Positions 9,682 through 26,655 of a DNA stretch of 30,341 nucleotides are shown here, piece by piece. Position 1 is the stretch's first letter; each line of letters starts with the position of its first letter. The translations under genes were made by a program, and so were the position numbers. The notes beneath the pieces are model-generated. The model saw only the letters and a list, made by a program, of their open reading frames with translations, made no database searches and had not been told where the DNA came from. The stretch is from a virus: IMG/VR virus record IMGVR_UViG_3300018081_000011, positions 1 to 30,341 of that record, one strand, 5' to 3'.

Positions 9682-10047
9682 ATGCAGGGACGCCTCGCTG
9701 GATTAGCGCTACTCGCGGCCATTGCTTGGGCCGCTCCTTCTTTTGCGCAGACAGCGGCGGTAACCACGAATAGCTCTGCCGTCATTGCTGCCGGGAACAC
9801 GTTCCAGACAATTCTGGCCGCGGTCCCGGCTCTCCCGGTAACGCGGCGCTCGCTGACGATCCAGAACAACAACACCACGACTGATAATTGCTGGATTTTC
9901 GTCGGCGCTGGCGGCGCGAGCAAGGGAACGTCCATCCTATTGCCGCCGGCATGGTCATATTCTCGCTATTTCCCCTATGTTCCCGCCGATGCAATCCAAG
10001 CAACGTGCGCAACCACGGGGAATACGCTTTATGTGGAATCTCAATAA
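9682..10047 (+). CDS. Exported beta protein, rhizobial-prophage cassette
   Basis: A 121-residue protein with a clear Sec signal peptide: basic N-terminus, hydrophobic core, and PSFA-Q cleavage after residue 22. The mature part is Asn/Thr-rich with SLTIQNNNTTTDNCWIFVGA, then GTSILLPPAWSYSRYFPYVP and DAIQATCATTGNTLYVES. A domain with 'LTIQNNN..CWIF.G.......SI.L..G.SY.RY.PYVPSDAIQATC..TG.TLYV' is familiar from virion regions of rhizobial prophages. It may be a small spike or fibre-tip domain. Two cysteines could form a disulfide after export. It overlaps the next gene by 17 bases. Confidence 0.65.
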   Translation: MQGRLAGLALLAAIAWAAPSFAQTAAVTTNSSAVIAAGNTFQTILAAVPALPVTRRSLTIQNNNTTTDNCWIFVGAGGASKGTSILLPPAWSYSRYFPYVPADAIQATCATTGNTLYVESQ

Positions 10048-10270
10048 ACTGGCGCTCATAGCCTTGCTCCTGATGCTATCTGCCGCCGCCCGCGGGGATG
10101 GCATCTCTGGCAGTGGTGGCCGCGGGCCTGCGGGGGATGGCATCGGTGGCGGAGTAGGAGCCGCCATCAGCAATAGCGGTGGGTTTACCGGGTCCGCGCC
10201 GGTCACGTGCGGGACTGGCGTTATCGATCTCTCGACTGGATGCACGCAGCCTATGTTCGGAGGGCTCTGA
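10031..10270 (+). CDS. Small exported Gly-rich protein
   Basis: A 79-residue protein starting MWNLNKLALIALLLMLSAAA, a signal-peptide-like start with likely cleavage near residue 20. A Gly/Ser-rich flexible segment follows, and the end is TCGTGVIDLSTGCTQPMFGGL with two cysteines. ATG 10031 is preferred over the upstream in-frame ATGs because it gives a clean signal peptide. Its stop overlaps the next ATG (TGATG). Short Gly-rich exported proteins with CGTGVIDLSTGC ends occur alongside fibre cassettes in rhizobial prophages; the function is unknown. Confidence 0.55.
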   Translation: MWNLNKLALIALLLMLSAAARGDGISGSGGRGPAGDGIGGGVGAAISNSGGFTGSAPVTCGTGVIDLSTGCTQPMFGGL

Positions 10271-11586
10271 TGAGACGGTTTCTTCTCGCTTTCACCGCGC
10301 TTGTCGGTATTGGCGTTGCAGCCGCCGTCGCCGACTACACCGCGACACAGGGCGCCGGAACTAACTTTGGCTCGGCCGTCCAGGCCACTGTTCATTATGC
10401 CAAGTTGGTGCTGTGCGACTTGACCGCGCCCGCGACGCAGTGCGCGACGGTCAGCGCGGCCGGCGCGGTCAAGGTCGATGGGTCGGCGGTCACGCAACCG
10501 GTCTCTGGAACGGTCGCCGTTACCGGAACCGTAACGGCCAATGCGGGGACCAACCTCAATACGTCAGCACTAGCCTTAGACGCCACGTTGACGACCACGA
10601 ACACCGATCTCGGACCTCCCGGAGCCACCGCCTGCGCAACCGATACTGGCTCATGTAGTTTGAATGCTCTGGCACAGCGGCAAGCTCAGCGGTTGACTAC
10701 AATCAACACGACGCTCGGCACGCCATTCCAGGCGGGCGGATCGATCGGGAACACGTCGTTTGGGGCAACTCAATCTGGGACCTGGACGGTCCAGCCGGGG
10801 AATACGCCAAACTCGACCGCGTGGCTGGTTACAGGAAGCGGCGGAACGTTCCCTGTTACCGCAACGAACCTCTCGACGAACATAAATCAGGTCAATGGCG
10901 TCACTCCCCTGATGGACAACGGCTTCGCGGGGGCGGGCGCGCAGCGAGTCGTCATCGCTTCCGACAATACCCCATTCTCCGTCAATGCGACTCTCTCGGC
11001 CGAGACAACCAAGGTCATCGGCACGGTCAACCAAGGGACCTCGCCCTGGGTCGGCAACGTGTCGCAAATCAACGGTGTCGCTCCGTTGATGGACAACGGC
11101 GCATCCGGCACCGGTGCACAGCGGGTATCGATCTCGAACAACAACAACGCCATTCCAGGCTGGGGTCATGTGGCGACGGGTGCCGCCCCTCCCACGGGAT
11201 CAAGTTACATTGGAGCCAACACCTCTGGCGCCACCGGCGGCCTGGTACAAGGACTGATCCAGTGCGATAGCACCGCTATTTATGACGCTTCGACCAACGG
11301 CTCAACGGAGCTGGTCGCACTCACGGCTGGCCGCACGATCTATGTATGCGGCTTCACCATCATGGCGGCCGGCACTGTGAACGCAAAGCTGATCTACGGC
11401 ACGGGCACCGCATGCGCTACTGGCGCAACCAATATGACCCCGGCCTGGCAGTTGACGACGCAAGTCGGCCTGGTGGACGGCTCTCCGTTCTCGCGCGGCC
11501 TCAAGACCGCATCGGCGAACGCCCTCTGCATCAACACATCGGCCGGCATCGCTACGCAGGCGATCGTGTACTACGCCAAGCTATAA
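10270..11586 (+). CDS. Exported repeat-containing fibre-like protein
   Basis: A 438-residue protein with an N-terminal signal peptide (MRRFLLAFTALVGIGVAAAVA, cleavage near residue 21). The rest is Thr/Ser/Gly/Asn-rich and beta-like, as in trimeric phage fibres and spikes. One unit is present twice: INQVNGVTPLMDNGFAGAGA-QRV and ISQ-type QINGVAPLMDNGASGTGA-QRV, about 60 residues apart. VSGTVAVTGTVTANAG and the QSGTWTVQPG segments are further short beta repeats. The C-terminal domain holds four cysteines (LIQCDSTAIYDAS, TIYVCGFTI, GTACATGA, NALCINTS). The N- and C-termini share the phrase YAKL. A role in surface binding is inferred. Confidence 0.65.
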   Translation: MRRFLLAFTALVGIGVAAAVADYTATQGAGTNFGSAVQATVHYAKLVLCDLTAPATQCATVSAAGAVKVDGSAVTQPVSGTVAVTGTVTANAGTNLNTSALALDATLTTTNTDLGPPGATACATDTGSCSLNALAQRQAQRLTTINTTLGTPFQAGGSIGNTSFGATQSGTWTVQPGNTPNSTAWLVTGSGGTFPVTATNLSTNINQVNGVTPLMDNGFAGAGAQRVVIASDNTPFSVNATLSAETTKVIGTVNQGTSPWVGNVSQINGVAPLMDNGASGTGAQRVSISNNNNAIPGWGHVATGAAPPTGSSYIGANTSGATGGLVQGLIQCDSTAIYDASTNGSTELVALTAGRTIYVCGFTIMAAGTVNAKLIYGTGTACATGATNMTPAWQLTTQVGLVDGSPFSRGLKTASANALCINTSAGIATQAIVYYAKL

Positions 11587-11599
11587 GGAGGATGGCACC

Positions 11600-11893
11600 A
11601 TGAAGAGATTGTTTCTTGCCGCGGCATTCCTCGCGCTGCTGCTGTCACCAGCGTCCGCCCAGAATATCGGAGATGTCGTCTTTCTTAAGTCTGGCGGCCC
11701 CCCGATGACAGTTACGGAAATACTTCCTGGCGGCGGTGTCGGCTTGCACTGGTTTTCTGGGGCACTCATGATGGCGGGGACGTTTCCGGCCATCTCTTTG
11801 GTCGTTACCGACCCATCGCCCGTACTTACAAAAGCACAGGCGGATGAAAGGTGCCGAATCTTCCCGCCGAAAGAAATCGGGGGGGCTTGCTAA
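11600..11893 (+). CDS. Exported DUF2158 (YodC-like) protein
   Basis: A 97-residue protein. Residues 1-20 are a textbook signal peptide ending SPASA-Q. Residues 22-70 match the DUF2158/YodC pattern: GDVVFLKSGGPPMTV, then VGLHWFSGALMMAGTFPAISL (KSGGPxMTV and a W-F motif). Usual family members are about 60-90 residues and cytoplasmic, so export is unusual. A strong ribosome site AAGGAGG (11586-11592) precedes ATG 11600. It sits within the fibre gene cluster. The function of DUF2158 is not established; a small beta-barrel binding module is the likely fold. The C-terminus has two cysteines (RCRIFPP, GGAC). Confidence 0.72.
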   Translation: MKRLFLAAAFLALLLSPASAQNIGDVVFLKSGGPPMTVTEILPGGGVGLHWFSGALMMAGTFPAISLVVTDPSPVLTKAQADERCRIFPPKEIGGAC

Positions 11894-11896
11894 GCA

Positions 11897-12748
11897 ATGA
11901 ACAAAATCGGCAAAGGGTTTTCATTAGCCTTTGCAGTCCTGCTTGCGGGCCTGATGTGCCTCGCGCAGGCGCAGGTTATGACTACCGGCGCGGGGGTGAA
12001 TAAGGCTGCTTGGACGCCCGCATCGCTCGGCGCCGGCCTTGTCGCCTGGTATGACGCCACGTCCGGCGTTTATGTCGATGCCGGGGTGACGCTGGCAACC
12101 AACGGCCAGACGGCCCGGCAATGGAACGACAGGAGCGGGCACGGATACAACCTTTTACAGGCCACCGCCGGGAATAGGCCGACATATCAAACTGGCGGGT
12201 TCAATTCGAGGCAGACTGTATTATTTGCAACTGCCACCTCCAAGTTCATGCTTACTGCTGCCAACACCGTTGCAATGGGCACCGGGAATGTCGGTTCTGC
12301 TTTTGGCGTAGGCAGAGCAGCCGGTGGCGGTGGCAACAATGGGCGGATCGTCAGTTATTACGCCAATGCTCAAACCAATGACACGACAAACTCTCAATCT
12401 GCCGCGTGGATAATGGTCACGCAGTCGTCTGGAGCGATGTCGTCCTACAGGGCGGGGTTCTTCGCAAACGACGCCGCCTTTTTCTCGAATACAACCGATT
12501 ACAGGTTTGGAAATGTATACGACAACACGAATAACACCAATTACCTAAACAACTCGGCCGGGACCCCCGTCGCTGCGGTCGGGGTTGCCTGGAATACTCC
12601 GGGAACCCTAGCGCTCAGCACAGACAACACAGGCGGTGGGTCATTTTGGGACGGGCCGATCTCGGAGATCATCGTCACCAACACGGCCCTGGACGCATTC
12701 CAGCGGTCGTTTCTGGACAGCTACTTCAGAACGAAATGGGGCTTGTGA
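11897..12748 (+). CDS. Exported LamG/concanavalin-like protein
   Basis: A 283-residue protein with a signal peptide (hydrophobic core then CLAQA-Q, cleavage near residue 25; no proper lipobox). The mature part begins with LGAGLVAWYDATSGVYVDAG, then RQWNDRSGHGYNLLQATAGN-RPTY and ends ALDAFQRSFLDSYFRTKWGL. W-x-D-x-S-G-x-G-x-x-LxQ-x-x-x-x-RP is the opening of LamG/concanavalin-like jelly-roll lectin domains in phage fibres. The FQRSFLDSYFRTKWG helix is the usual end. It likely binds a surface sugar. The coding region has runs of lower GC (about 12330-12560), unlike the head genes. The start has only a weak ribosome site. Confidence 0.7.
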   Translation: MNKIGKGFSLAFAVLLAGLMCLAQAQVMTTGAGVNKAAWTPASLGAGLVAWYDATSGVYVDAGVTLATNGQTARQWNDRSGHGYNLLQATAGNRPTYQTGGFNSRQTVLFATATSKFMLTAANTVAMGTGNVGSAFGVGRAAGGGGNNGRIVSYYANAQTNDTTNSQSAAWIMVTQSSGAMSSYRAGFFANDAAFFSNTTDYRFGNVYDNTNNTNYLNNSAGTPVAAVGVAWNTPGTLALSTDNTGGGSFWDGPISEIIVTNTALDAFQRSFLDSYFRTKWGL

Positions 12749-12759
12749 TCTCTCGCGTA

Positions 12760-12771
12760 GTGCGTTGCCCG
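12760..12771 (+). promoter_or_regulatory. 12-bp element 40 bases before tail-tube gene, copy 1
   Basis: GTGCGTTGCCCG starts exactly 40 bases before the ATG at 12800. The same 12 bases occur at 21893-21904, also exactly 40 bases before an ATG (tail fibre). Neither gene has a clear ribosome site. A shared regulatory element is possible. Confidence 0.3.
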
Positions 12772-12799: not shown

Positions 12800-13438
12800 A
12801 TGCCCATTCAATGGCCAGTTTCCAAGCTTGACATAATCAATTCGGCGCTCGCCGCGACCAGGAATTTTCAGGTCGCCGTGGCAGATGATGGCTCCGCGGA
12901 ATGGACCGCATGCTCGCCGGCCTACGAACGGGCCCTGGCCGTCATGCTCGAGGAGTACAGATGGGGGTTTGGCACAAAAGTATCCGTTTTGATCCCATCG
13001 CCGACCGCGCCGGCCGATGTCAGTTGGGACACGGCATACCCGCTGCCGCAGGATTGCCTGCATGTGGTTTGGGTGAAGCAGGGGAACAACTCGCAATTCT
13101 CGCAATTCCTTACCGTATGGGACATCCAGATCGTCGATAATGTTCCAATGCTGTTGTTGAGCCTGCGGGGCGCGGCGGATGTCTGCACCGTCAGGTACGC
13201 CTCTTTTGACGGCGCCGCGAGCGACGCGCAGAGCGCCTCGCCAATGTTCGTTGAAGCGCTCTACGAGTTTGTATTATCGGGAGTCTATCGCTGGCAGAAC
13301 GACAAGGACGAGGCCGACAGAATATGGTTGCAGGCAAAGAGGAGCGCCCAAGAAGCCAGGACGCGCTACGCTCAACAGAAGCCGACGCGGCCACTGTTCA
13401 AGTCTCGCATCAGCGCTTCTCGCAGCGATAGCCGGTGA
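12800..13438 (+). CDS. Tail tubular protein A (T7 gp11-like adaptor)
   Basis: A 212-residue protein with the gp11/gp4 adaptor layout. It starts with a helix LDIINSALAATRNFQVAVAD, then SPAYERALAVMLEEYRWGFG (the 'ac...yp.ar..lL....W.fA' pattern), AYPLPQDCLHVVWV (YxLPxDCLRVxxV) and a C-terminal helical pair EALYEFVLSGVYRWQNDKDE with a basic, disordered tail. It docks under the portal and receives the tail nozzle. It stands directly before the nozzle gene, as in T7-like phages. No strong ribosome site is visible. The start is fixed by the conserved 'P..kldIiNsALa' opening. Confidence 0.83.
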   Translation: MPIQWPVSKLDIINSALAATRNFQVAVADDGSAEWTACSPAYERALAVMLEEYRWGFGTKVSVLIPSPTAPADVSWDTAYPLPQDCLHVVWVKQGNNSQFSQFLTVWDIQIVDNVPMLLLSLRGAADVCTVRYASFDGAASDAQSASPMFVEALYEFVLSGVYRWQNDKDEADRIWLQAKRSAQEARTRYAQQKPTRPLFKSRISASRSDSR

Positions 13439-13444
13439 TGCGCC

Positions 13445-15754
13445 ATGGCGGCTCTCAGCGCCACCACCTCGCAGCGCGATTTCTCCGCTGGCGAGGTTGA
13501 TGTCGAAGTCAAGCGCGACGACACCAACCCTCTGATGCGGGCCGGGGCTCGCCAGATGAGCAACTGGCGCATCCTCAACACCAGGGGCCTGGCCAACCGC
13601 CCAGGCCGCCGCGCAATCTTCCCGGAGACCGGGCGAGTCGAGCGAGTGACGATGAAGCCAGGGAGCACGTTCTTCCTGGCGTTCGGCCCAGCGACTCTGC
13701 GGGTCTATGACGAAAACGGCGCCATGGTCTTTGGCGTCGGGGGCAGGTCGTGGAGCAATTCGAGTATCAGGTTCATCCGATGGGCCGTAATCGGCCTGTC
13801 GATCTACATCGCGTTTGAAGGCGCCCAACCGAGCGTTCTGACCTGGGATGGCGTGGCAACGTGGAGCGAGGCGACATTTGCCGAGACGGTTACGCTGGGC
13901 AATCAGAAGCGGACATTCTTCTACCGAATTTCTCCGCTCGGCATCACCATGAAGCCGTCCACACGCTCGGTCGGGGCCGGGGCTACGCTTACGTTCAGTG
14001 CGGGCATGAATTTGACGGCGGCGCACGTCGGAACTCGCATGCGATTCGTCGGGCGGCAAGTGCTGATCACGGCCGTCGCCAGCGCCGTCAGTGCGACGGC
14101 TACCATCGAAGAGACACTGCCGGCTTCTCAGGTTTTGGCATTTACCCCTGATCCGATCGACACATTCTCGATCGGGGATGTTGTGCAAGGGACTGTCACG
14201 AATTCCAAAGGGATTGTAACGCAGATCAATTCCGGCGCGAAGCAGATCACGGTCCAGCTTCTAACCGTGCCCACCACTCCGACGCAGGTACGCGGTAACG
14301 TTCTCAGCGTCTTTGCGTTCGTGACACCGGAAGTGGTAGTGGGTCCTGGTGGTTCTCTTCCGCTCGTTGGCGTTACACCGGTTGGCAACCCGGAGGCGGT
14401 GACAATTTGGGACGACGAGGTCATGAATGCTCTTCGGGGATGGCCCGCGTCGGTGTTCTCCGATCAGAACCGCCTCGGCTTTTGCAATTTTCCGAGCGTC
14501 CCGCGCTCCATCGGCTGGTCCGCGATTGGTTTGCCGACCGATCTCTATCCCGATGCGCAGACCGGCAACGCTATATTCGAACTGGCTCCGGAGCAATGTC
14601 AGGTCTTTGATGTCGTGCCAGGGGCGGAATCGTCCGAGTTCGTGTTCACCGACAAAGGTATCTGGTACATCGCAATCTCGGCGACCAACCCCTTGAGACC
14701 TGGATCGGTGGGATTCCAGCGCGTATCGAGCGATGTTTGCGCCAATGTGCAGCCGCGCATCGTTCAAGACCTCATTCTCTATCTCACTACCGGCCTCATT
14801 CAGTTGATGGCGGTCATTCCCGTGGGTGCGACCAATCGGCCCTATACAACAAAAGACTTGACCGAGCAGCGAACGCATCTGTTCGAGGACCCGATCGCCA
14901 TTGCGGTACCCAACTCGGCCGGACTGGGCTTTGCGGAACGCTACATCTACGTGCTCAATGCCAGCGGCGACCACGTCGTCGTAGGCAGGCTACAGACCGT
15001 AGACGGTCAGATCAGCGCCCAGAGCACGGTCGGGTGGGTTCCGTGGAAGCCAGGCGGCTCTGGTAACATCCTCTGGATTTCGTCATTGGGGGAAAGCGTC
15101 GTTTTCGTGACTCAATACTTTCCGGACGGCGTTACTCCGGTTCAGATTGTCGAGGGTCTTGACAACGCGATTTATCTCGACGCCGGAATGCTCGTGAATG
15201 CCGCCCCGCCCGCGCTCACTCCGCCAGTAGGCAAGGGACCTTTATGGTGGGTTGGAGCAGGATCGGTAGACCTGATGGATCAGGTCACGCGCATGATGGG
15301 AACGTACCAGGTCGATGCCGATGGGTTCATCATCCCGCAGAACAACGGCGGCGAGGATTTGACGGCGGCGTCCTTGATCGCTGGCTTCGCGTGGGACGCA
15401 GTGCTGGAGCCGTTCATTCCGCCAGTCCAGGCGGGGCAGGACATATCGCAGCGGATGGAACCGCGATTGATCGAGCAGGCGCAGGTTTATGTGATGAACT
15501 CGACCGGGTTTGCGATGACAACGTTGTACAGCGGGCAATCGGGACCGGCGCTTCCGGCATTGGGGGCGGCAATGGCTACCCGTCGAATCCCGACATGGAA
15601 CCAGGGCGAGGATGCAACCTTGCCGCCGCCGCTGCGCGAGCAAAGCTATCTCGACAGGCCGCTCGGGCGCTCGCACGACCCGCGCTGGGCCGTGGTCAAG
15701 GAGACGCCGGGGCCGATCACGGTGCTGGAAATCGCAACCAGGGTCACGGTGTGA
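13445..15754 (+). CDS. Tail tubular protein B (T7 gp12-like nozzle)
   Basis: A 769-residue beta-rich protein. The opening is diagnostic: TSQRDFSAGEVDVEVKRDD, then NWRILNTRGLANRPGRRAIF (the 'N...lp.GgltrRPGtrf' element of nozzle proteins). The body alternates strands typical of a propeller-like platform (FIRWAVIGLSIYIAFEGAQ, FVFTDKGIWYIAI, ERYIYVLNASGDHVVVGRL). The product would form a hexameric nozzle below the gp11-like ring, closing the tail tube and carrying fibres. Its stop overlaps the next ATG. The length fits the family (about 700-900). Confidence 0.82.
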   Translation: MAALSATTSQRDFSAGEVDVEVKRDDTNPLMRAGARQMSNWRILNTRGLANRPGRRAIFPETGRVERVTMKPGSTFFLAFGPATLRVYDENGAMVFGVGGRSWSNSSIRFIRWAVIGLSIYIAFEGAQPSVLTWDGVATWSEATFAETVTLGNQKRTFFYRISPLGITMKPSTRSVGAGATLTFSAGMNLTAAHVGTRMRFVGRQVLITAVASAVSATATIEETLPASQVLAFTPDPIDTFSIGDVVQGTVTNSKGIVTQINSGAKQITVQLLTVPTTPTQVRGNVLSVFAFVTPEVVVGPGGSLPLVGVTPVGNPEAVTIWDDEVMNALRGWPASVFSDQNRLGFCNFPSVPRSIGWSAIGLPTDLYPDAQTGNAIFELAPEQCQVFDVVPGAESSEFVFTDKGIWYIAISATNPLRPGSVGFQRVSSDVCANVQPRIVQDLILYLTTGLIQLMAVIPVGATNRPYTTKDLTEQRTHLFEDPIAIAVPNSAGLGFAERYIYVLNASGDHVVVGRLQTVDGQISAQSTVGWVPWKPGGSGNILWISSLGESVVFVTQYFPDGVTPVQIVEGLDNAIYLDAGMLVNAAPPALTPPVGKGPLWWVGAGSVDLMDQVTRMMGTYQVDADGFIIPQNNGGEDLTAASLIAGFAWDAVLEPFIPPVQAGQDISQRMEPRLIEQAQVYVMNSTGFAMTTLYSGQSGPALPALGAAMATRRIPTWNQGEDATLPPPLREQSYLDRPLGRSHDPRWAVVKETPGPITVLEIATRVTV

Positions 15755-16263
15755 TGGGAACAGCAGCAGGCGGCGCATCCGGGGCATCGATCGCGGGGCT
15801 GGGCTTTGCGGCGGCGTCTTCGATCGCCAAAGGCTTCGGCACCCAGGCCGCCGATGAGTTTCAAGCGGACCGTGCAACGCGCGCCGCCGAACTCGGACGG
15901 ACGCAGGCTGCGCTGACTGACGTGACCTACCGCGAGAATCTCGACACGACGCTCGGCAACATCGACGCGATCCGGGCCGCCGCGCATATCGACCCAACGT
16001 CGCCGACGACCGCCGCGCTGCGCGACTACAACACGAGGCTATCGGATCGGCAACGCATGGCCGCGGTGGGTTCGCTCCGCCAACAGGCGTCCGAGGACGA
16101 GGCCGGCGCGACCTATCTGCGCAAGGCCGGCGACTTCGCCTTGAAGATGGGCTTCCTTGACGCGGCGGCGAAGGTCGCAGGCGGGATCGGGTTGGGCCTC
16201 AGTAGTTCAAGTGGATTGTCGAGCAGTTCCGGGAATCCACTTAAGCTGGGGGCGCTCTACTGA
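15754..16263 (+). CDS. Internal virion protein (gp14-position)
   Basis: A 169-residue protein starting on the nozzle-gene stop. The first 30 residues are Gly/Ala/Ser-rich and hydrophobic (ASIAGLGFAAASSIAKGFG). Then come long charged helices (EFQADRATRAAELGRTQAAL and SDRQRMAAVGSLRQQASEDE). A small Ala-rich N-terminal membrane-like segment followed by a coiled coil is the usual make-up of T7 gp14-type ejection proteins. ATG 15754 overlaps the upstream TGA and its TGA overlaps the next ATG, which shows coupling within the ejection module. Assignment is by position and composition. Confidence 0.65.
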   Translation: MGTAAGGASGASIAGLGFAAASSIAKGFGTQAADEFQADRATRAAELGRTQAALTDVTYRENLDTTLGNIDAIRAAAHIDPTSPTTAALRDYNTRLSDRQRMAAVGSLRQQASEDEAGATYLRKAGDFALKMGFLDAAAKVAGGIGLGLSSSSGLSSSSGNPLKLGALY

Positions 16264-17924
16264 TGGTTGATCTCCCGCAGGTCAGGAACGATGTGCCGCA
16301 GGTCCGACCGCCGAACTCCCCGGTGAGTCCAGGGCAGATTGCGCAACCCTATGCGCAGGTTTCATCGCTACTCGAAAGCGCCAGCAAAGAGGCCGAGGCG
16401 GTCGCCAAGCCGCTCGCGCGCGAAGCCGGTATCCAGGCCGTCACGCGCGATGCCGATGGCAACATGCAAGTCGAGAGGCTTCCGATCGTCGGGCCTGCGG
16501 CGAAAGACTTTAGCGATGCGGTAAAGTGGTCGGCGTTTGCGCAAAGCGCAGGCGAGGCGAGGCGTGCAGACCTTGTGCTCGCGAGGAAGTACCAGTATGA
16601 CCCGGATGGTTATCTGCGGGCCGCCGATGCGTTTCGGAAGGATTACGTTCAAAAGATAACGAAGGTTGCTGGTCCCGAAGTCGGCGTCGAACTCAGCCGC
16701 GCGATCGATGGCATCACCACACAGCAATTCAACAGCATCCTGGCACAACAGCAGGCGAAGATACGGCGCGACTTCGACCACGACACCGCGGCAATGATCA
16801 CGAACGATACGGTTGATCTTCAAAACCTCATCAAGACCGGCGGCCTGGATACCCCGGCGGGTAAGCAGGAGTTCGTTCGGCTCACCAATCGTATCGCCAA
16901 CACGTACCATCAGCGCTCGGCCAATCCGATCCTCGGTGCCCCCCCTGGAGAAACCGCACTCAAGCTCAAGCAATTCGATCAGCAGGTCGGTGCCTCGCTG
17001 TTCGCATCAGGCATCAGGAAAATCTTGAACGATCCCGATGGCGGCATTGAGAAAGCGCAGGCCGCAATCGACGCCAACTTTGATGACCAATCCGTCCCGG
17101 CAACCCAGCGCGTCGAGAACCGGGCTGTTGCGCTGGATACAATCAAGGAGATCACGCAGGATCGCGTTCGTTCTGCAAACATGGCGGTCCAGCAGCAAAA
17201 GCAGTACGACGAAGCTTTTGAGCAAAGGGTTATCGGCTCAACGACCCTCGGTGCAGAGCGGATGACGTTGGACCAAATCAAGAAAGACCCATACGCCTCG
17301 GCGGCGGCAAAGATGAAGATGGAGAACTATGTCAAGCGCGAGGGGATGCCGGAACCGTTAGCGCGCACTTCAAACGAAAGGGCCATAGGCCTCATCCGTC
17401 AAATCCGCTCCGGAGAGATGGGAACCAACGGCAAAATCTATGACGCCTATGATGCGGGCGAACTCAACAAAGCCGACTTCAACTTCGTCAATGGCGAATT
17501 CGAGAAACTGCGTGGGCCAGGCGGCGAGAAACTTGGCCAAGCCAAGAAATCGTTTTTCGATGCAGTCAAGACATCGATTACAAAATCCAACCCCCTGCTG
17601 GGTACACTAGATAAAAGCGGGGACCTTCAGCTCTATCGCTTCGAGCAGGACGTGGCTGCGAAGATGGACGAGTATCGCAATACTACTGGCAAAGACCCCT
17701 ACGACTTGCTCAATCCAAACAAGCCAGATTTCATGGGAACTTCAGCGGCATTGCAGCAATACCAGGTGCCGATCGAGCAATCGATGCGGAACATCGCCAA
17801 CCAGTTCCGACGACCGCCCCCGCCACCCGCGGTTGCGCTACCGCCGTCAACCCAGCCAGCGGGGGCGGTCCCACCCAAGGCCAGGGAGACGCCTGATCAA
17901 GTTCTAAAGCGCTTGGGTCTGTAG
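16263..17924 (+). CDS. Internal virion protein (gp15-position)
   Basis: A 553-residue, mostly helical, soluble protein in the gp15 slot. Features include VSSLLESASKEAEAVAKPLA near the start, repeated Gln-rich helices (NSILAQQQAKIRRDFDHDTA) and QRVENRAVALDTIKEITQDR. The C-terminal part is Pro-rich (RRPPPPPAVALPP) and ends in a short helix ETPDQVLKRLGL. Such proteins line the ejected channel that carries DNA across the cell envelope. There are no catalytic motifs and no signal peptide. It begins in the stop of the previous gene and ends two bases before the 1319-residue gene. Confidence 0.65.
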   Translation: MVDLPQVRNDVPQVRPPNSPVSPGQIAQPYAQVSSLLESASKEAEAVAKPLAREAGIQAVTRDADGNMQVERLPIVGPAAKDFSDAVKWSAFAQSAGEARRADLVLARKYQYDPDGYLRAADAFRKDYVQKITKVAGPEVGVELSRAIDGITTQQFNSILAQQQAKIRRDFDHDTAAMITNDTVDLQNLIKTGGLDTPAGKQEFVRLTNRIANTYHQRSANPILGAPPGETALKLKQFDQQVGASLFASGIRKILNDPDGGIEKAQAAIDANFDDQSVPATQRVENRAVALDTIKEITQDRVRSANMAVQQQKQYDEAFEQRVIGSTTLGAERMTLDQIKKDPYASAAAKMKMENYVKREGMPEPLARTSNERAIGLIRQIRSGEMGTNGKIYDAYDAGELNKADFNFVNGEFEKLRGPGGEKLGQAKKSFFDAVKTSITKSNPLLGTLDKSGDLQLYRFEQDVAAKMDEYRNTTGKDPYDLLNPNKPDFMGTSAALQQYQVPIEQSMRNIANQFRRPPPPPAVALPPSTQPAGAVPPKARETPDQVLKRLGL

Positions 17925-17926
17925 TT

Positions 17927-20900
17927 ATGGCCGGCCGCATCGAGACGCTTCAGGCGAGTGGGTTCAGCGAGGATGAAATCTCTGCCTGGGCAGCTCCACG
18001 GCGCAAGGCGCTTCAGGACGCCGGCTTTCCCGACAACGAGATTGACGCCTACTTCACTGGCGGCGTCGTAGCGCCAGCCACAATCCCGCAAGCGTTCCAC
18101 GATCGCATCGCCGCTGGCGAGGAAGCGGGGAAGCGCGAGGGCGGTTTGATACAGACCGTCCCGCAGTTTGCCAACATGATCATGACGCCGGAAGGTCGCG
18201 GCAGGCTATGGGAGGCCGTGAAGCAATATCCATCCGAGTTTATCAAAGGGACGATTGAGACCCTTAAAGTCCCTGGGAAGGTTGCGAGCGGAGAACTCGA
18301 CCTCAACACCGAGGAAGGCATGGATCAGGCGCTCGGTCTTGGCATGCTGATCGGACTCGGGCGCTTCAGCAAGATAAATAAGACCGGCAAGACATCCGGC
18401 TTGGCCGTCGCCAACGGCGAGCCCATTGCGCGGGTAGAGAAGTCGCCGACCGGTGAGGTGTTCGATCAGGTTATCGGAGGGCTGCCGGAGTCGCAGCATT
18501 TCGTGGACGCGGCGAGGGTTATTGCTCCGGAGCAAGCCCCGCCATCCACGCGGCTCGCGCCTATGGCAGCAAGAGGGGAGCAGGTTTCTATTGATCTTCC
18601 TCCTCCATCTCCACCGAGGTATGTGCAGGATAAGCTACTGAAGCTCTACGAAGAATTCGGCCGGCTTCCCGCCGAAGTGGCGCACGACGCACAGACCGAT
18701 CCCGTCATCCTACAAAGGCTGTTATCGAAGGACCCGCGTGATATTCCTTATATCGAGGCGGCAAGCCCACAAAGTATAGGTGCCAAGTTTGAGCAGGATA
18801 TGTGGCACATACCGCTAATGTCCTCCGGGAAGGAGGCCGGTCGGCTTGAGTTCATCCTCGGCGATATGTATGGCAACAATGCCGACAAAGTCGCAACAAT
18901 CAGAGGCATCTATTTGACGGAAGAGAGCAGGGGACAAGGATTGGCGACGAGCGCCTACGAGAAGTTAGCGCGTTGGGCAATCGATTCAGGACGTATTCTC
19001 AAAAGCTCCGCGGCGGGAGATTTGAAGCCTACAAGTGAAATGATTTATGACAGACTATCGGATCGTGGTTTTGATGTTCGCAAGACGACCAACGAATTTG
19101 GTCGATCCAGTTACGAAGTTGTAGCCGCGCCCCCCAAGTCCGATATGGGCGGGGCCGGGGGTGGTCAGCCGCCACAAGGACCGGCCGCCGCGACTGTCGC
19201 ATCCCAGCCCCAATTGCCAGGCGGCGCCGGCACTCCGCCGCCCGCAGCCGGAACTCCCGCACTCCCTGCGGCCCCGCCCGGTGGGGTTCCCCCAACGCCT
19301 CCTCCTGCTGCTGCACCGCCAGCCGCTCCACCGCCCCCCGGCGCCCCCATGACACTGGCGGGAGCGCAGCAGGCCATCCACAGCAAGATCAACATCGGGG
19401 GCCGCGGCCAAGGCTACACGCTGAGCCAGTCCTACCGGGATTTTGTTGACGATCTGTACCCGCTGAAGGGATACAGCGAGGATGCCTATCAGGCCGCGCG
19501 CCGCACGAGAGGCGATGTCGGCCGAGCGAATTACTTTCTTGAGCAGAGCACGACCGACTTCAACACCTACCGAAACAATGGCCCATCGCTGCGAGAAGTT
19601 CTTGAGCCCGTGCGTGACGATCTTGACGGCTTGCGCGATTACCTGGCCGCGAAGCGCGCGATGGAATTGGAAGGCCGCGGCATCAACTCGGGCTTCGATC
19701 CTGCCGCGGCGCAGATGGTAGTCACCGCGGGCCAGCGTCAATATGGTCGGGTCGGGCAGCAGCTTGTCGATTACCAGAACCGCGTGCTCGCCTACTTGCG
19801 TGATGCTGGCGTTATCACGGATCACCAGTACCGCGCCATAACTGACGCGAACAAGTCTTACATCCCATTCAACCGGGCGATCCAGCCCGACGACATCATG
19901 GGACATCGCCAAGGCGGTGGCCTAGGTGCGGGCGACCCGATCAAGCGGCTGGTTGGCTCGGATCGCGATATTGTCGATCCGCTCGAAAGCATCATCAAGA
20001 ACACGTACATTTACGTGGCGGTCGCCGAGCGCAATGCCGCCGGGCTAACGCTGATCGACGAACTTCAGAGACAGGGATACCGAGCGACCAACCCGGCGCC
20101 CGATGCGCGCGACAAGATCGGCGCTTACCGCAATGGCCAACGCGTCGAAATGGCGGTCGATGATCCGGAACTCGTGACGGCATTCAAAGCGCTAGACCGG
20201 GACACCGTTGGCATAATCGCAAAAATCCTGTCTTACCCGGCAAGCTGGCTGCGCGCGGGCGCGATCCTCACGCCGGAATTTATGACGCGCAACCCAATGC
20301 GCGACCTGCTGTCTGCCTTTGTCTTTTCCGCGCGGGGGATTTTCTCTCCAATCGATACCGCCAAGGGATTAGTTGGCGTGCTGCGGCGGGACGCGGATTG
20401 GCAGAACTGGATCAAGTCTGGGGGGGCTAATTCAACCCTAGTAGGGCTCGATCGGCAATATCTACAGGAGAGCCTAGCGAAGCTCAATGCCGGCACCGGC
20501 CTCATGAACCGGTCATGGAACGTCATCAAGAGCCCGATCGAAGGCTTGCGTATGATCTCGGAACTGACCGAGAACGCGACCCGCCTTGGCGAGTTCAAGA
20601 AGGTGATGCAGGGACAGGTCGGAAAGGACGTGATGGAAGAGGCCGCCTTTTCATCCCGCGAAGTGACACTGGACTTCGCCCGCATGGGCGCCAAGATGCG
20701 CTCGTGGAACGCAATCAGCGCGTTTGCAAACGCTCATATTCAAGGTCCCGACCGTCTCGCCCGCGCCTTCCTTGATCGGCCAATCAATACCTCGGCCAAG
20801 GTGCTTGCCGGTATTACCGCCCCTTCCGCCCTTCTGTGGTGGGCCAACCACGACGACGAGCGCTACAAGGAACTACCGGCCTGGCAGAAAGACCTGTTCT

Positions 20901-21886
20901 GGATCATCCCGACCGACCAATGGGAACCCATTTCCGCGGCCGATGCAGCCGGCAAGCCAGCGCACCTTCTGCGGCAGCGCGGCGACCAATGGGAGTTCAA
21001 CAACGGCAACATCTGGCGTATTCCAAAGCCGTTTGAAATCGGGGTCATTTTCGGCTCCGGGGTCGAACGGGCGCTCGATTATATGTACGGCAACAACCCG
21101 GAAGCATTCGACGGCTTCGCCAAGTCGGTTATGAATACGCTTATCCCGAACGTCATCCCGACCATCGCTGTGCCTCTTTACGAACAATGGGCCAATCGCT
21201 CGACCTTCACCGACCGGACGCTGATCCCCGCCTATGTCGAGAAACAGCTGCCAGAGTACCAATACACGCCCTACACGACCGAGCTAAGCAAGAAACTCGG
21301 GCAGACGATCAGCGCCTTCCCAGGTATGCGGACGGCGGCCATAGAGCCGGGCAATGTGGCGGGTCCGATGGCGAGGGGACTTACCACGCCTATCCTCATC
21401 GAGAACTACGTTCGGGCATGGAGCGGCGGCCTCGGCATGTACGTCGTGCAGGGCACGGATGCGCTGATGCGCAAGGCCGGCGTCCTTCCCGATCCCATCA
21501 AGCCGACCGACACGCTGGCCGACGTTCCATTCGTCAAGGCGTTTGTCGTTCGCTACCCTTCGGCCTCAACGGAATCCATTCAGCGATTCCACGACGACTA
21601 CCAGGAGAACAAGCGCTATTTCGATACTTGGACGGCCAAGGCAAAAGAGGGCGACGTAGAGGCAATGGCGCGTATCCAGGCGGCCGGCGGCGACACGATG
21701 TTCGTCCAACTCGACAAGATCAATGAGACCATATCCGAGCACTCCAAACTGGTCCGCGATATCTACAAATACCCAATGCCTGCCGAGGAGAAACGCCAGT
21801 TGATTGACCAACTCTACTATTCCATGATTGAAATTGCGAAGACGGGACGGGAAGTCGCCCGTCAGGCGAAGCAGACATTGCAATAA
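17927..21886 (+). CDS. Giant polyvalent ejection protein with GNAT-like domain
   Basis: A 1319-residue protein in the gp16 position. Residues 1-46 hold two short repeats (LQASGFSEDEISAW and LQDAGFPDNEIDAYF) seen at the start of large phage internal proteins. About 285-390 is a GNAT acetyltransferase-like domain: LEFILGDMYGNNADKVATIR, then LTEESRGQGLATSAYEKLAR with the acetyl-CoA loop RGQGLA at 335-340. About 405-475 is a Pro/Ala/Gly linker. After this comes a large helical region with LRAGAILTPEFMTRNPMRDL (about 775-793), matching the large polyvalent protein-associated LPD38 domain. The rest is helical to the end. No lytic transglycosylase motif was seen. It is probably packaged and injected, delivering the acetyltransferase early in infection. 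Confidence 0.75.
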   Translation: MAGRIETLQASGFSEDEISAWAAPRRKALQDAGFPDNEIDAYFTGGVVAPATIPQAFHDRIAAGEEAGKREGGLIQTVPQFANMIMTPEGRGRLWEAVKQYPSEFIKGTIETLKVPGKVASGELDLNTEEGMDQALGLGMLIGLGRFSKINKTGKTSGLAVANGEPIARVEKSPTGEVFDQVIGGLPESQHFVDAARVIAPEQAPPSTRLAPMAARGEQVSIDLPPPSPPRYVQDKLLKLYEEFGRLPAEVAHDAQTDPVILQRLLSKDPRDIPYIEAASPQSIGAKFEQDMWHIPLMSSGKEAGRLEFILGDMYGNNADKVATIRGIYLTEESRGQGLATSAYEKLARWAIDSGRILKSSAAGDLKPTSEMIYDRLSDRGFDVRKTTNEFGRSSYEVVAAPPKSDMGGAGGGQPPQGPAAATVASQPQLPGGAGTPPPAAGTPALPAAPPGGVPPTPPPAAAPPAAPPPPGAPMTLAGAQQAIHSKINIGGRGQGYTLSQSYRDFVDDLYPLKGYSEDAYQAARRTRGDVGRANYFLEQSTTDFNTYRNNGPSLREVLEPVRDDLDGLRDYLAAKRAMELEGRGINSGFDPAAAQMVVTAGQRQYGRVGQQLVDYQNRVLAYLRDAGVITDHQYRAITDANKSYIPFNRAIQPDDIMGHRQGGGLGAGDPIKRLVGSDRDIVDPLESIIKNTYIYVAVAERNAAGLTLIDELQRQGYRATNPAPDARDKIGAYRNGQRVEMAVDDPELVTAFKALDRDTVGIIAKILSYPASWLRAGAILTPEFMTRNPMRDLLSAFVFSARGIFSPIDTAKGLVGVLRRDADWQNWIKSGGANSTLVGLDRQYLQESLAKLNAGTGLMNRSWNVIKSPIEGLRMISELTENATRLGEFKKVMQGQVGKDVMEEAAFSSREVTLDFARMGAKMRSWNAISAFANAHIQGPDRLARAFLDRPINTSAKVLAGITAPSALLWWANHDDERYKELPAWQKDLFWIIPTDQWEPISAADAAGKPAHLLRQRGDQWEFNNGNIWRIPKPFEIGVIFGSGVERALDYMYGNNPEAFDGFAKSVMNTLIPNVIPTIAVPLYEQWANRSTFTDRTLIPAYVEKQLPEYQYTPYTTELSKKLGQTISAFPGMRTAAIEPGNVAGPMARGLTTPILIENYVRAWSGGLGMYVVQGTDALMRKAGVLPDPIKPTDTLADVPFVKAFVVRYPSASTESIQRFHDDYQENKRYFDTWTAKAKEGDVEAMARIQAAGGDTMFVQLDKINETISEHSKLVRDIYKYPMPAEEKRQLIDQLYYSMIEIAKTGREVARQAKQTLQ

Positions 21887-21892
21887 GCCACG

Positions 21893-21904
21893 GTGCGTTG
21901 CCCG
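21893..21904 (+). promoter_or_regulatory. 12-bp element 40 bases before tail fibre, copy 2
   Basis: GTGCGTTGCCCG, identical to 12760-12771 and with the same 28-base gap to the following ATG. It lies in the 46-base gap after the giant ejection protein gene. Confidence 0.3.
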
Positions 21905-21932: not shown

Positions 21933-24296
21933 ATGCGCACAATCCTCGCCGTCTTGCTGTCGCTCCTCGGCTCACTGATCGCACCGGCATGTGCCCAGGC
22001 GCCTCCAGCGATACCGGCCTTGCCGGATACCGAGCGGCGGACGGCCTACGCCATCACCAATCAGACCGGCCCCTTCAACGTCAATTTCCAGATTTACGGC
22101 GACGGCACGGATTATGGCGCGTGGATCGAGGTGTGGCTCGATGGCGTAATGCTGGCGCCAGGTTCGCAATGGACGCTCAGCCTTGCAACCGGCACGCTGG
22201 CGACCGCTGCGCGGCCATTGCAGAACGCGCGGGTCACGCTCACCACGGCCAGCACGGGCACTTTGCAGATCGTTGGTGCGCGCCGGCCGCGTCGCACATC
22301 GCAGTTCATCGAGAACCAGGGAGTCAGCGCGCGCAGTCTCAATCAGGCGTTGACCGATGTCGTCGCGCAGAACCGCGAGACGTGGGACAAGATCAACGAT
22401 GTGAGTGGCCGCACGCTCCTCGCGCCACCCGGCGAGACCATGCGCGTTCTGCCACCGGCGCTTAGTCGCGTTGGCCACCTGCTGGGCTTCGACACCGGCG
22501 GCCAGCCGGTTATGACAGACGGTACCTTCGTCATCACCCCGATCGGCACCGGAATGACCGCATACCCGACCAGGGCGGCGGCACAAGCGGCGACGATCGC
22601 GACCGCGATTGCGGTGCTACAGATCAACGGGTATTCGACGGTCGGCGATGCACCGCCGGCAAACTACATCCGCATCCCATGCGCTGCCACGGTAGCTTGG
22701 GGGTTCCAATCCGCCGACAAGATCGACAGCACCGGCGCGACCTGCACGGGGACCAACATCAACTGGCGTTTGAATGTTGACGAGCTGGACGTTCGCCACG
22801 TCGGCGTCGTATGCAACGCCTCCGGGACAGTCAACAACACGACCACTTTGAAAGCCGTTGCTGGTTATATCCTCGCTACCAACGCGCGAGTTGTCAACTT
22901 TCCCCCTGGACCCGTTAATTGTGGCATCTGGCCGTCCGGGACCGCGGTTCCGACGGAAAACCTGTTTGACCTCCAAAGCGCCACCATTACCGGACTTACC
23001 GTTAATTACAACGGGGCTTGCATCTCCACCTCGTCTGTCGATGCCGATTGGGGCGGCACAACCATTTCTTATCTGTGGCGCTTTGCAGATGCCAGCAGGA
23101 TCACGTTCAACAATCCTTGCTACCTTCAGGCTGGGACTACAAATCCGACTTCCTTATATGGTGGAGTGCAAATTCAGAACACCGGGCAGGGCGACGGCTT
23201 TACTATCAACAACGGGAAGCAGATAGGTGGTTATTCTGGCTATATCGTAAGCCGCAACGCTGGAACGATCGACAACTTCAATAATGTGAAAGTAAACGGC
23301 TTTGAGTCCAATGGCACATACTATCCGATAGTACTTCAGAAGAACGGGAACAACGCCCACATCGTCAATATCTATTCCGAAAATCACGGTCGATTCTTTT
23401 TTGCGCAAAACGTCAAGAATGTTTTCTTCCGTGGCAGGATGAAAGTATCGGGACACGTCGGCCCGGAAGGCGCTCTGCTGAAGGTTTACTGCGATAACGC
23501 CGACTCCATCAATGTCAACACTTTGGAGGCAATCGACTACGGGTTGGAAATCGTTGACTCCGCAGCGGTGCTCCCCGACAGTTATGTTCTTGTCGAGATG
23601 TCGTACCAGCAGGTCGCTGGTGATAACTGCAATAATAAGGGAGTAATGCGAAATATCAAAATCAACCTGACAGGGCGGCTTCCGCCGACGACAAACCTTT
23701 CCGTTGGCGTTACCAACAGCAGAATTCTGGCGAATGGCAACTTCGACACCACCGTGAGGGGGTATGTTTGGGACAACATAGAAATCGGAGGCTCGCTATA
23801 TAATACTCACCCTACGCCGCTGGGCCTTGTGCTTATCAATCTTTTCCAGACGCCAAAGGGGACTTTCACGGGAGACGCTATCGGCAACATTACTATAGAC
23901 AAACTGTTGCTGCGCACGGCGGCTGGCACCCCAGGGGCCAACAATATTCAAATCGACGGAGCGGTCATCAGCGGCCTTCGGTTGGACTCCGTCATAGTGC
24001 CGAACAACATCGCTCTGACAAATATTGCTTTGGCAAGCTTTACATCCAGGCTTGTGACTTCCGCCGCCTTCACCGTCAATGGGCTGGCCTACACTTCCGG
24101 GTTTGGGTCTGGATCGACATCTAGTATATCCACCACTGTCGCTGGCCTCCCTACTTGTAATGTTTCTGGCATGCGGTCATTCGTAACAGACAGTAACGCC
24201 GCGAGTTACACCGCTGGGATTGGGGCCATCGTTGCCGCTGGCGGCGCGACCAAGGTGCCGGTTGTTTGCGATGGAACCAATTGGAGGATTGGTTAA
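21933..24296 (+). CDS. Tail fibre with T7 gp17-like N-terminus and signal peptide
   Basis: A 787-residue protein. Residues 1-21 are a strong signal peptide (MRTILAVLLSLLGSLIAPACA). About 38-165 is the podovirus fibre attachment domain: AYAITNQTGPFNVNFQIYGD, YGAWIEVWLDGVMLAPGSQW, LQIVGARRPRRTSQFIENQG and LNQALTDVVAQNRETWDK. Residues about 225-700 have a right-handed beta-helix (pectate-lyase-like) character with many Asn/Thr/Gly turns. The C-terminal GLPTCNVSGMRSFVTDSNAA to PVVCDGTNWRIG is a common fibre end domain. Relatives start directly at the YxITN segment, so the signal peptide is an addition. GC content falls visibly after about 23000, which suggests exchange of the receptor-binding part. 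Confidence 0.83.
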   Translation: MRTILAVLLSLLGSLIAPACAQAPPAIPALPDTERRTAYAITNQTGPFNVNFQIYGDGTDYGAWIEVWLDGVMLAPGSQWTLSLATGTLATAARPLQNARVTLTTASTGTLQIVGARRPRRTSQFIENQGVSARSLNQALTDVVAQNRETWDKINDVSGRTLLAPPGETMRVLPPALSRVGHLLGFDTGGQPVMTDGTFVITPIGTGMTAYPTRAAAQAATIATAIAVLQINGYSTVGDAPPANYIRIPCAATVAWGFQSADKIDSTGATCTGTNINWRLNVDELDVRHVGVVCNASGTVNNTTTLKAVAGYILATNARVVNFPPGPVNCGIWPSGTAVPTENLFDLQSATITGLTVNYNGACISTSSVDADWGGTTISYLWRFADASRITFNNPCYLQAGTTNPTSLYGGVQIQNTGQGDGFTINNGKQIGGYSGYIVSRNAGTIDNFNNVKVNGFESNGTYYPIVLQKNGNNAHIVNIYSENHGRFFFAQNVKNVFFRGRMKVSGHVGPEGALLKVYCDNADSINVNTLEAIDYGLEIVDSAAVLPDSYVLVEMSYQQVAGDNCNNKGVMRNIKINLTGRLPPTTNLSVGVTNSRILANGNFDTTVRGYVWDNIEIGGSLYNTHPTPLGLVLINLFQTPKGTFTGDAIGNITIDKLLLRTAAGTPGANNIQIDGAVISGLRLDSVIVPNNIALTNIALASFTSRLVTSAAFTVNGLAYTSGFGSGSTSSISTTVAGLPTCNVSGMRSFVTDSNAASYTAGIGAIVAAGGATKVPVVCDGTNWRIG

Positions 24297-26244: not shown

Positions 26245-26655
26245 ATGATGCGCCTTTCAATCGTCCTCCTCTGCCTTGTGTGCACTGCCAATAGCGCGCG
26301 CGCAGGCGACCCTAGGTGGGAGCAGATGCCCCAGGAGGTCAGGGCGTGGTTCGCCCGCCAGAAGCAGCCGGACAATCGAATGGTGGGCTGTTGTGGTCTT
26401 GCGGACGCGTACTATGCGGACGAGTTTGTGGTCAAGGATGGCAGGTTCTACGCCATCATAACCGATGATCGAGAAGACTCTTTGCTCGGTCGCCCGCACA
26501 GGCCCAGCGGAACCCAGGTCGAGGTGCCCCCGCACAAGTTCAACGACCCGTCCCCGCAAGGAACCAAGGACCCCGTTCCGGTCCCCCACGGGATTGTCTT
26601 CATAAACGTCGATAACAACGCAATCTGCTACTTCAACCCACCAAACGATGGTTGA
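26245..26655 (+). CDS. Secreted protein, possible moron (rhizobial family)
   Basis: A 136-residue protein with signal peptide (MMRLSIVLLCLVCTANSARA, cleavage near residue 20). The mature part has VRAWFARQKQPDNRMVGCCG, LADAYYADEFVVKDGRFYAI and TDDREDSLLGRPHRPSGTQV, then a V-P-P-H-K and VPHGIVFINVDNNAICYFNPP end. 'WF....P....CCG.ADAYYAD..ITDDR....GRP..P.GT.V.VP' describes a secreted family common in Bradyrhizobium and relatives, of unknown function. AGGAGGA (26231-26237) sets the start. It stands alone after a terminator and could be expressed in the lysogen. The paired cysteines suggest a disulfide or metal site. Confidence 0.7.
   Translation: MMRLSIVLLCLVCTANSARAGDPRWEQMPQEVRAWFARQKQPDNRMVGCCGLADAYYADEFVVKDGRFYAIITDDREDSLLGRPHRPSGTQVEVPPHKFNDPSPQGTKDPVPVPHGIVFINVDNNAICYFNPPNDG

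Follow-up and report, generated by a model that had tools for sequence, protein, structure and literature searches.

Tail fibres of phage T7 (gp17) and its podovirus kin combine a conserved N-terminal attachment domain with a variable distal part, and are encoded in loci with gp11/gp12-type nozzle genes. In T7 gp17 no signal peptide precedes the attachment domain, with which the protein begins, and synthesis is cytoplasmic; the cytoplasm is also where, to our knowledge, tailed phages are assumed to assemble their virions. Virion proteins with Sec signal peptides are known from filamentous phages, in which coat proteins such as pIII form their disulfides in the periplasm. Export signals are also found on other phage-encoded proteins (lambda Lom, spanins, the T4 antiholin RI and signal-peptide endolysins), whose site of action is the host envelope and which do not form part of the virion. 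Missing signal peptides have been taken as a sign of the phage origin of a protein (PMC6199706). Searches of the open-access literature turned up no tailed phage whose fibre is secreted.

The whole stretch of DNA considered here, the window, is a viral contig of 30,341 bases with podovirus gene order. It may encode a gp17-type fibre whose life history is secretory, in a short-tailed virus of soil bacteria. The genes run from terminase, portal-type connector and capsid through a cluster at 9682-12748 to the nozzle genes, encoding a tail tubular A (gp11)-like protein (12800..13438, plus strand; PHROG 394, E 1e-18) and a tail tubular B (gp12)-like protein, the presumed docking partner of the fibre (13445..15754, plus strand; PHROG 376, E 7e-23), both without a signal peptide. 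Genes for large internal proteins extend to 21886 and are followed by the fibre gene (21933-24296); 3' of it lies a gene whose product has a peptidoglycan-binding domain and matches PHROGs of the endolysin type. The fibre gene thus sits within a tail module with gp11/gp12-type nozzle genes, family F2, that of the gp12-like protein, being found in 18 fibre loci and family F5 in 10. Unlike T7 gp17, the window fibre has a secretory leader and paired distal cysteines. Filamentous phages are extruded through and assembled at the membrane, whereas the window has the capsid and the lysis module of a tailed phage. Like Lom, spanins, RI and the signal-peptide endolysins, the fibre is phage-encoded and carries an export signal, but a fibre with an attachment domain belongs to another class. 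The reading preferred here, with a probability of about 0.6, is that Sec exports the fibre, which after cleavage acquires disulfides in the periplasm and at lysis docks on particles built in the cytoplasm. Export and oxidation are the strongly supported steps of this reading; docking after export is the presumed one.

The fibre gene was verified as an open frame with an ATG at 21933. Signal peptides were called with a simple home-made test of the n-, h- and c-regions (cut-off 5), used in place of SignalP. The window fibre scored 6.2. Its putative Sec signal peptide (residues 1-21; 21933..21995, plus strand) is MRTILAVLLSLLGSLIAPACA, followed after the cut by QAPPAIPALPDTERRTAYAITNQTGPF (over a longer stretch, QAPPAIPALPDTERR), and is called on this test and on conservation. 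It has the positive n-region, the hydrophobic core of 8-13 residues and the small residues at -3 and -1 that characterize substrates of Sec and signal peptidase I. The predicted mature N-terminus and linker, QAPPAIPAL (21996..22022, plus strand), stand where relatives lacking a signal peptide begin (MTVPTLPD, MTAIPALPD, MPSPVAVPALPD). The false calls numbered 2 for internal segments (n = 1260) and 17 for shuffled N-termini (n = 980), rates by which a random hydrophobic N-terminus was rejected, and the test fired on none of the core structural families of related loci. Frame and score together uphold the proposal, made in an earlier sequence-only reading, that a 21-residue signal sequence ending ACA-Q precedes the fibre domain.

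That reading had also held that no alternative ATG with a ribosome site precedes the conserved domain. This proved correct, since there is no in-frame ATG between 21933 and the domain, and the TTG codons at 21954 and 22020 likewise lack a ribosome site. The start codon is marked from the other side by a GTGCGTTGC element (21893..21901, plus strand), its GCGTTGC lying 38 nt upstream of the fibre ATG, which recurs in related fibre loci. GCGTTGC was found at -37 to -41 (mostly -38) of the fibre ATG in 32 of 52 loci, with (SP+) and without (SP-) a signal peptide alike, against an expected chance frequency of 0.035 per 150 bases. A second copy (12760..12768, plus strand) places GCGTTGC 38 nt upstream of the nozzle-gene ATG at 12800; counting this and other genes, the element stands before a total of 51 ATGs, of which 90% have C at -1. 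The fixed distance of -38 confirms the fibre start codon, tag or no tag, and because it is the same in SP+ and SP- fibres the leader lies between start codon and mature domain. TTG 22020 was rejected as the true start on the same ground, the element keeping its spacing to the signal-peptide ATG in SP+ fibres and to the mature-position ATG in SP- fibres. Starts preceded by the element have no ribosome site in the window, and Rfam gave no family match over the -38 region of the fibre. As there is no ribosome site in the window and the spacing is fixed, GTGCGTTGC is probably a promoter-like element of this phage group, giving leaderless or near-leaderless mRNA. Such transcripts are an established feature of Bradyrhizobium japonicum, where 192 start sites coincide exactly with a start codon (PMC4842269).

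These codons bear on a reading with two pools of fibre, in which most of the protein is exported and a cytoplasmic fraction, arising by slow targeting or from an internal GTG or TTG near PALPD, joins the virion in the ordinary way. Many relatives do have a GTG or TTG at the VPALPD segment, as the window has TTG 22020, but in the window such codons are without a ribosome site and some relatives have none. Cytoplasmic fibres would moreover be without the paired disulfides that selection evidently keeps, and we consider two pools distinctly improbable.

The sequence-only reading had described the N-terminal domain as T7 gp17-like. An AlphaFold2 model of this domain (about residues 31-158; 22023..22406, plus strand; alignments A2 and A4) was built from 28 relatives, with a mean pLDDT of 76, and compared with the PDB using Foldseek. 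Podovirus fibre N-termini came out on top, with E-values of 2e-5 to 1e-3; the best fold matches were 9efk (E 2.3e-5) and, for the T7 tail, 7ey9 (E 8.5e-4). A VIA-align comparison with 7ey9 gave Z 9.1, with 108 residues aligned at 4.6 A. By this model the fibre has the same attachment-domain fold and order as T7 gp17 and its podovirus kin (7ey9, 7boz, 9efk, 8i4m). The likeness stands in the predicted fold and fails at the level of the family profile: the HMM of PF03906, the family type named in that reading, did not match the window domain even at E<=10, nor any member of alignment A1 at E<=1. The domain is accordingly not filed as a PF03906 member, and the predicted fold is all that it has in common with gp17. 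Pfam and PHROGs searches of the N-terminal domain gave nothing useful, an hhalign profile comparison with T7 gp17 alone was insignificant, and a PDB sequence search returned chance matches only; the question was settled by the fold search. The domain does not lie at the very N-terminus of the protein; the 21-residue signal peptide and the linker come first. Because the fold alignments start at model residues 29-35, opposite T7 gp17 residues 2-5, the signal peptide is N-terminal to everything homologous to gp17, and the leader is extra.

Relatives of the fibre were collected by three scans of viral contigs and one of genomes, to which 392 genomes from a single bacterial family were added, giving 55 fibres, one outgroup among them; among 50,697 phage records, tblastn gave no match to the fibre. 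Several hosts of the related loci are Bradyrhizobium. The homologues do not all start at the YxITN segment, the outcome named beforehand as telling against a leader: 49 of the 55, Bradyrhizobium prophages included, have a signal peptide immediately ahead of a common PPxVPALPD segment. The leader diverges in sequence, and its end is nearly always A-x-A, then Q and PPxVPALPD after the cut. Its pN/pS between relatives is about 0.5, and its amino acids are therefore under constraint. The six fibres without a leader are five close relatives and a distant one. The close ones begin at or near the predicted mature N-terminus of the SP+ fibres, L004, L010, L023 and L027 with MPSPVAVPALPDTERR, MTVPTLPDSERR, MTAIPTLPDTERR and MTAIPALPDSERR, respectively, and L070 with MTVPALPD; the distant one, from a Microcystis phage, begins at its own attachment domain. 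In the fibre tree the leader is absent in two separate places besides the distant outgroup.

An exported fibre might no longer be part of the virion and have its task in the medium or on the host envelope instead. It could, for instance, degrade exopolysaccharide as a free depolymerase or block superinfection by masking receptors, its attachment domain being left over from a former place on the virion. Export and oxidation would fit an envelope protein directly, with no need of late docking, and phage-encoded envelope proteins that are exported have a precedent in lambda Lom (PMC12309495). However, the attachment domain is about 50-70% identical among SP+ phages while the distal part varies, as would be expected if the fibre still docked on a conserved partner, and the loci of SP+ and of SP- fibres have their tail genes in common. 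In the window this is the one gp17-type fibre identified, yet in three related loci (L003, L006 and L025) further SP+ fibre-like proteins adjoin the fibre. Since attachment domain and gene neighbourhood are conserved, a role confined to the envelope or medium, the main rival to the preferred reading, is considered rather unlikely.

The additional large SP+ proteins of these three loci (L003 8406, L006 12382 and L025 11404) have 8, 10 and 14 cysteines; two show weak beta-helix or pectate-lyase-like matches and one is glycine-rich. It is possible that they are second exported fibres or spikes.

All 10 mature cysteines of the window fibre (residues 250, 271, 294, 330, 363, 396, 520, 566, 742 and 779) lie in the variable distal part (22407..24296, plus strand). 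The cysteine count was even in 40 of 43 complete mature SP+ fibres, most of which have 6 to 20; the odd counts are those of L036 (possibly degenerate), L051 and L067. Despite shared ancestry the counts differ from fibre to fibre and yet stay even. The SP-less fibres counted, five in number, have 9, 2, 2, 1 and 3 cysteines, an even number in two of five. Among the complete, non-redundant cysteine-bearing genes of the first 29 loci, counts were even in 40 of 42 SP+ genes versus 81 of 203 SP- genes (Fisher 4e-12), the two odd SP+ genes being host-like in appearance. The cysteines of SP+ proteins lie in neighbouring pairs, with median gaps of 15 inside successive pairs versus 84 between pairs (p 4e-48), as against 28 versus 23 (p 0.87), hence no pairing, in the SP- controls; these p-values overstate the effect because related sequences are not independent. 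In the attachment domain a CxC pair is gained or lost as one unit (alignment A4). The SP+ fibres thus carry, by sequence, the even and paired cysteines, absent from cytoplasmic relatives, of a disulfide-bonded periplasmic protein, and we infer that such pairs are the mark expected of disulfides formed in the periplasm. The even-count rule has an exception in the lysis-region protein at 26245-26655, whose signal peptide is borderline and which has 3 cysteines when mature.

Core virion proteins, the nozzle included, have no signal peptide; 51 of 93 lack cysteine, and of the remainder 28 have odd and 14 even counts. As odd counts prevail among the cysteine-bearing ones, virion exposure by itself is not the source of the pairs, and environmental oxidation of any exposed virion protein was considered unlikely, gp12-type nozzle proteins being mostly odd-count. 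The same observations bear on the view that the leader is unused, the hydrophobic N-terminus being incidental and the fibre remaining cytoplasmic until its disulfides form on release into air. Virions do meet oxygen after lysis. Paired cysteines are nevertheless absent from SP-less fibres and from other exposed virion proteins (gp12-type nozzle), and a leader with a net-positive start, an uncharged core and an A-x-A end is kept in 49 of 55 fibres although its sequence diverges; an unused leader is given next to no credence.

The large internal proteins adjoining the fibre (16263-17924, 553 aa; 17927-21886, 1319 aa) have no cysteine at all, and families F1, F3 and F4, their relatives in related loci, have almost none. 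In the 1319-aa protein there is a large polyvalent protein domain, LPD38, together with a segment that weakly resembles GNAT acetyltransferases.

The fibre is not alone in carrying a leader. As the sequence-only reading had it, the cluster at 9682-12748 shares the trait, the ATGs at 9682, 10031, 10270, 11600 and 11897 all starting signal peptides, whereas capsid, portal, nozzle and ejection proteins never have one. The first gene (9682..10047, plus strand) encodes a small exported jelly-roll protein, a probable virion surface protein, with 2 mature cysteines. In its family, sampled in 25 distinct loci, the leader is nearly always present and the two cysteines are invariant. The jelly roll is that of a model whose structural matches are weak (E about 1e-3 to 1e-2 in Foldseek, Z 8-9), and no decisive structural relative was found in the fold search. 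The predicted fold is similar to those of PM2 spike P1, the KHP40 cement protein, turret proteins and Bacillus Ena pili, without sequence relation to any of them, and the virion role is putative. The Ena pilins are disulfide-linked; the 9682 family has its two invariant cysteines. The cluster continues, on the plus strand, with a small protein with 2 cysteines (10031..10270), a 438-aa protein with 8 mature cysteines whose C-terminal part resembles phage 'glycoprotein repeat' proteins (10270..11586), a 97-aa DUF2158 protein with 2 mature cysteines (11600..11893), and a 283-aa protein with no mature cysteine and a PHROG 'virion structural protein' match (11897..12748). In another virion-type family, SP+ members in L024 and L035 have a leader and two cysteines, while the member in L004, whose fibre is also SP-less, begins at the mature position without leader or cysteine pair; about 50 distant SP-less relatives of this family have 0-3 cysteines, with no parity.

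Because the leader is conserved and the cysteines are paired in leader-bearing families, it is well supported that the fibre is marked for export and that one mechanism is common to it and the 9682-12748 cluster. Both points had been anticipated; the unusual assembly route proposed with them would be their most economical consequence. Leader, leader conservation, start codon and paired cysteines are supported by the sequences and the attachment-domain fold by the model, and from these we infer Sec export, cleavage after ACA, Dsb oxidation, periplasmic storage, docking after export and timing by lysis. In the proposed route, translation would begin at 21933 and the signal peptide would send the fibre chain through Sec. 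Signal peptidase would cut after ACA, leaving a mature fibre, QAPPAIPALPD, that begins at the same place as the SP-less relatives. This fibre would fold in the periplasm, its cysteines (10 here) pairing into mostly local disulfides, while head, nozzle and ejection proteins would stay in the cytoplasm as a fibreless particle. Once holin and spanins had opened the membranes, fibres and other exported surface proteins could meet the particles, and the gp17-type domain of the released fibre would dock on the nozzle. Docking after lysis would face dilution, a point against this explanation. Other phages are known to add fibres or spikes late, when the particle is already finished, as with the long tail fibres of T4 and the tailspike of P22.

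Since the fibre and several surface proteins look built for an oxidising space, completion of the virion outside the cytoplasm may occur. A wider proposal, to which we give even odds, is that short-tailed phages of the Bradyrhizobium type split virion building across the inner membrane and join the halves only at lysis, the leader and paired cysteines being gained together and the fibre switching between a cytoplasmic and an exported state. Head, nozzle and ejection proteins would be made on the cytoplasmic side, and disulfide-bonded fibres, the small jelly-roll protein and other decoration proteins on the periplasmic side. If fibres are indeed exported and oxidised before assembly, phage assembly would have a second compartment and a last step coupled to lysis, and infection would depend on host Sec and Dsb as factors. 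Among the proteins called 'secreted' in rhizobial genomes and viromes, some would then belong to virions. The export reading also suggests how disulfides could stabilise receptor-binding proteins.

Two further observations were made. In genome G036, a DUF3311 membrane protein (L042, 1348-1845) has a fibre-attachment-type domain inserted between two transmembrane segments; in the related genome G074 the DUF3311 protein is uninterrupted. In the window, positions 465-531 gave an Rfam match to DUF3800-VIII RNA (57 bits, E 2e-8).
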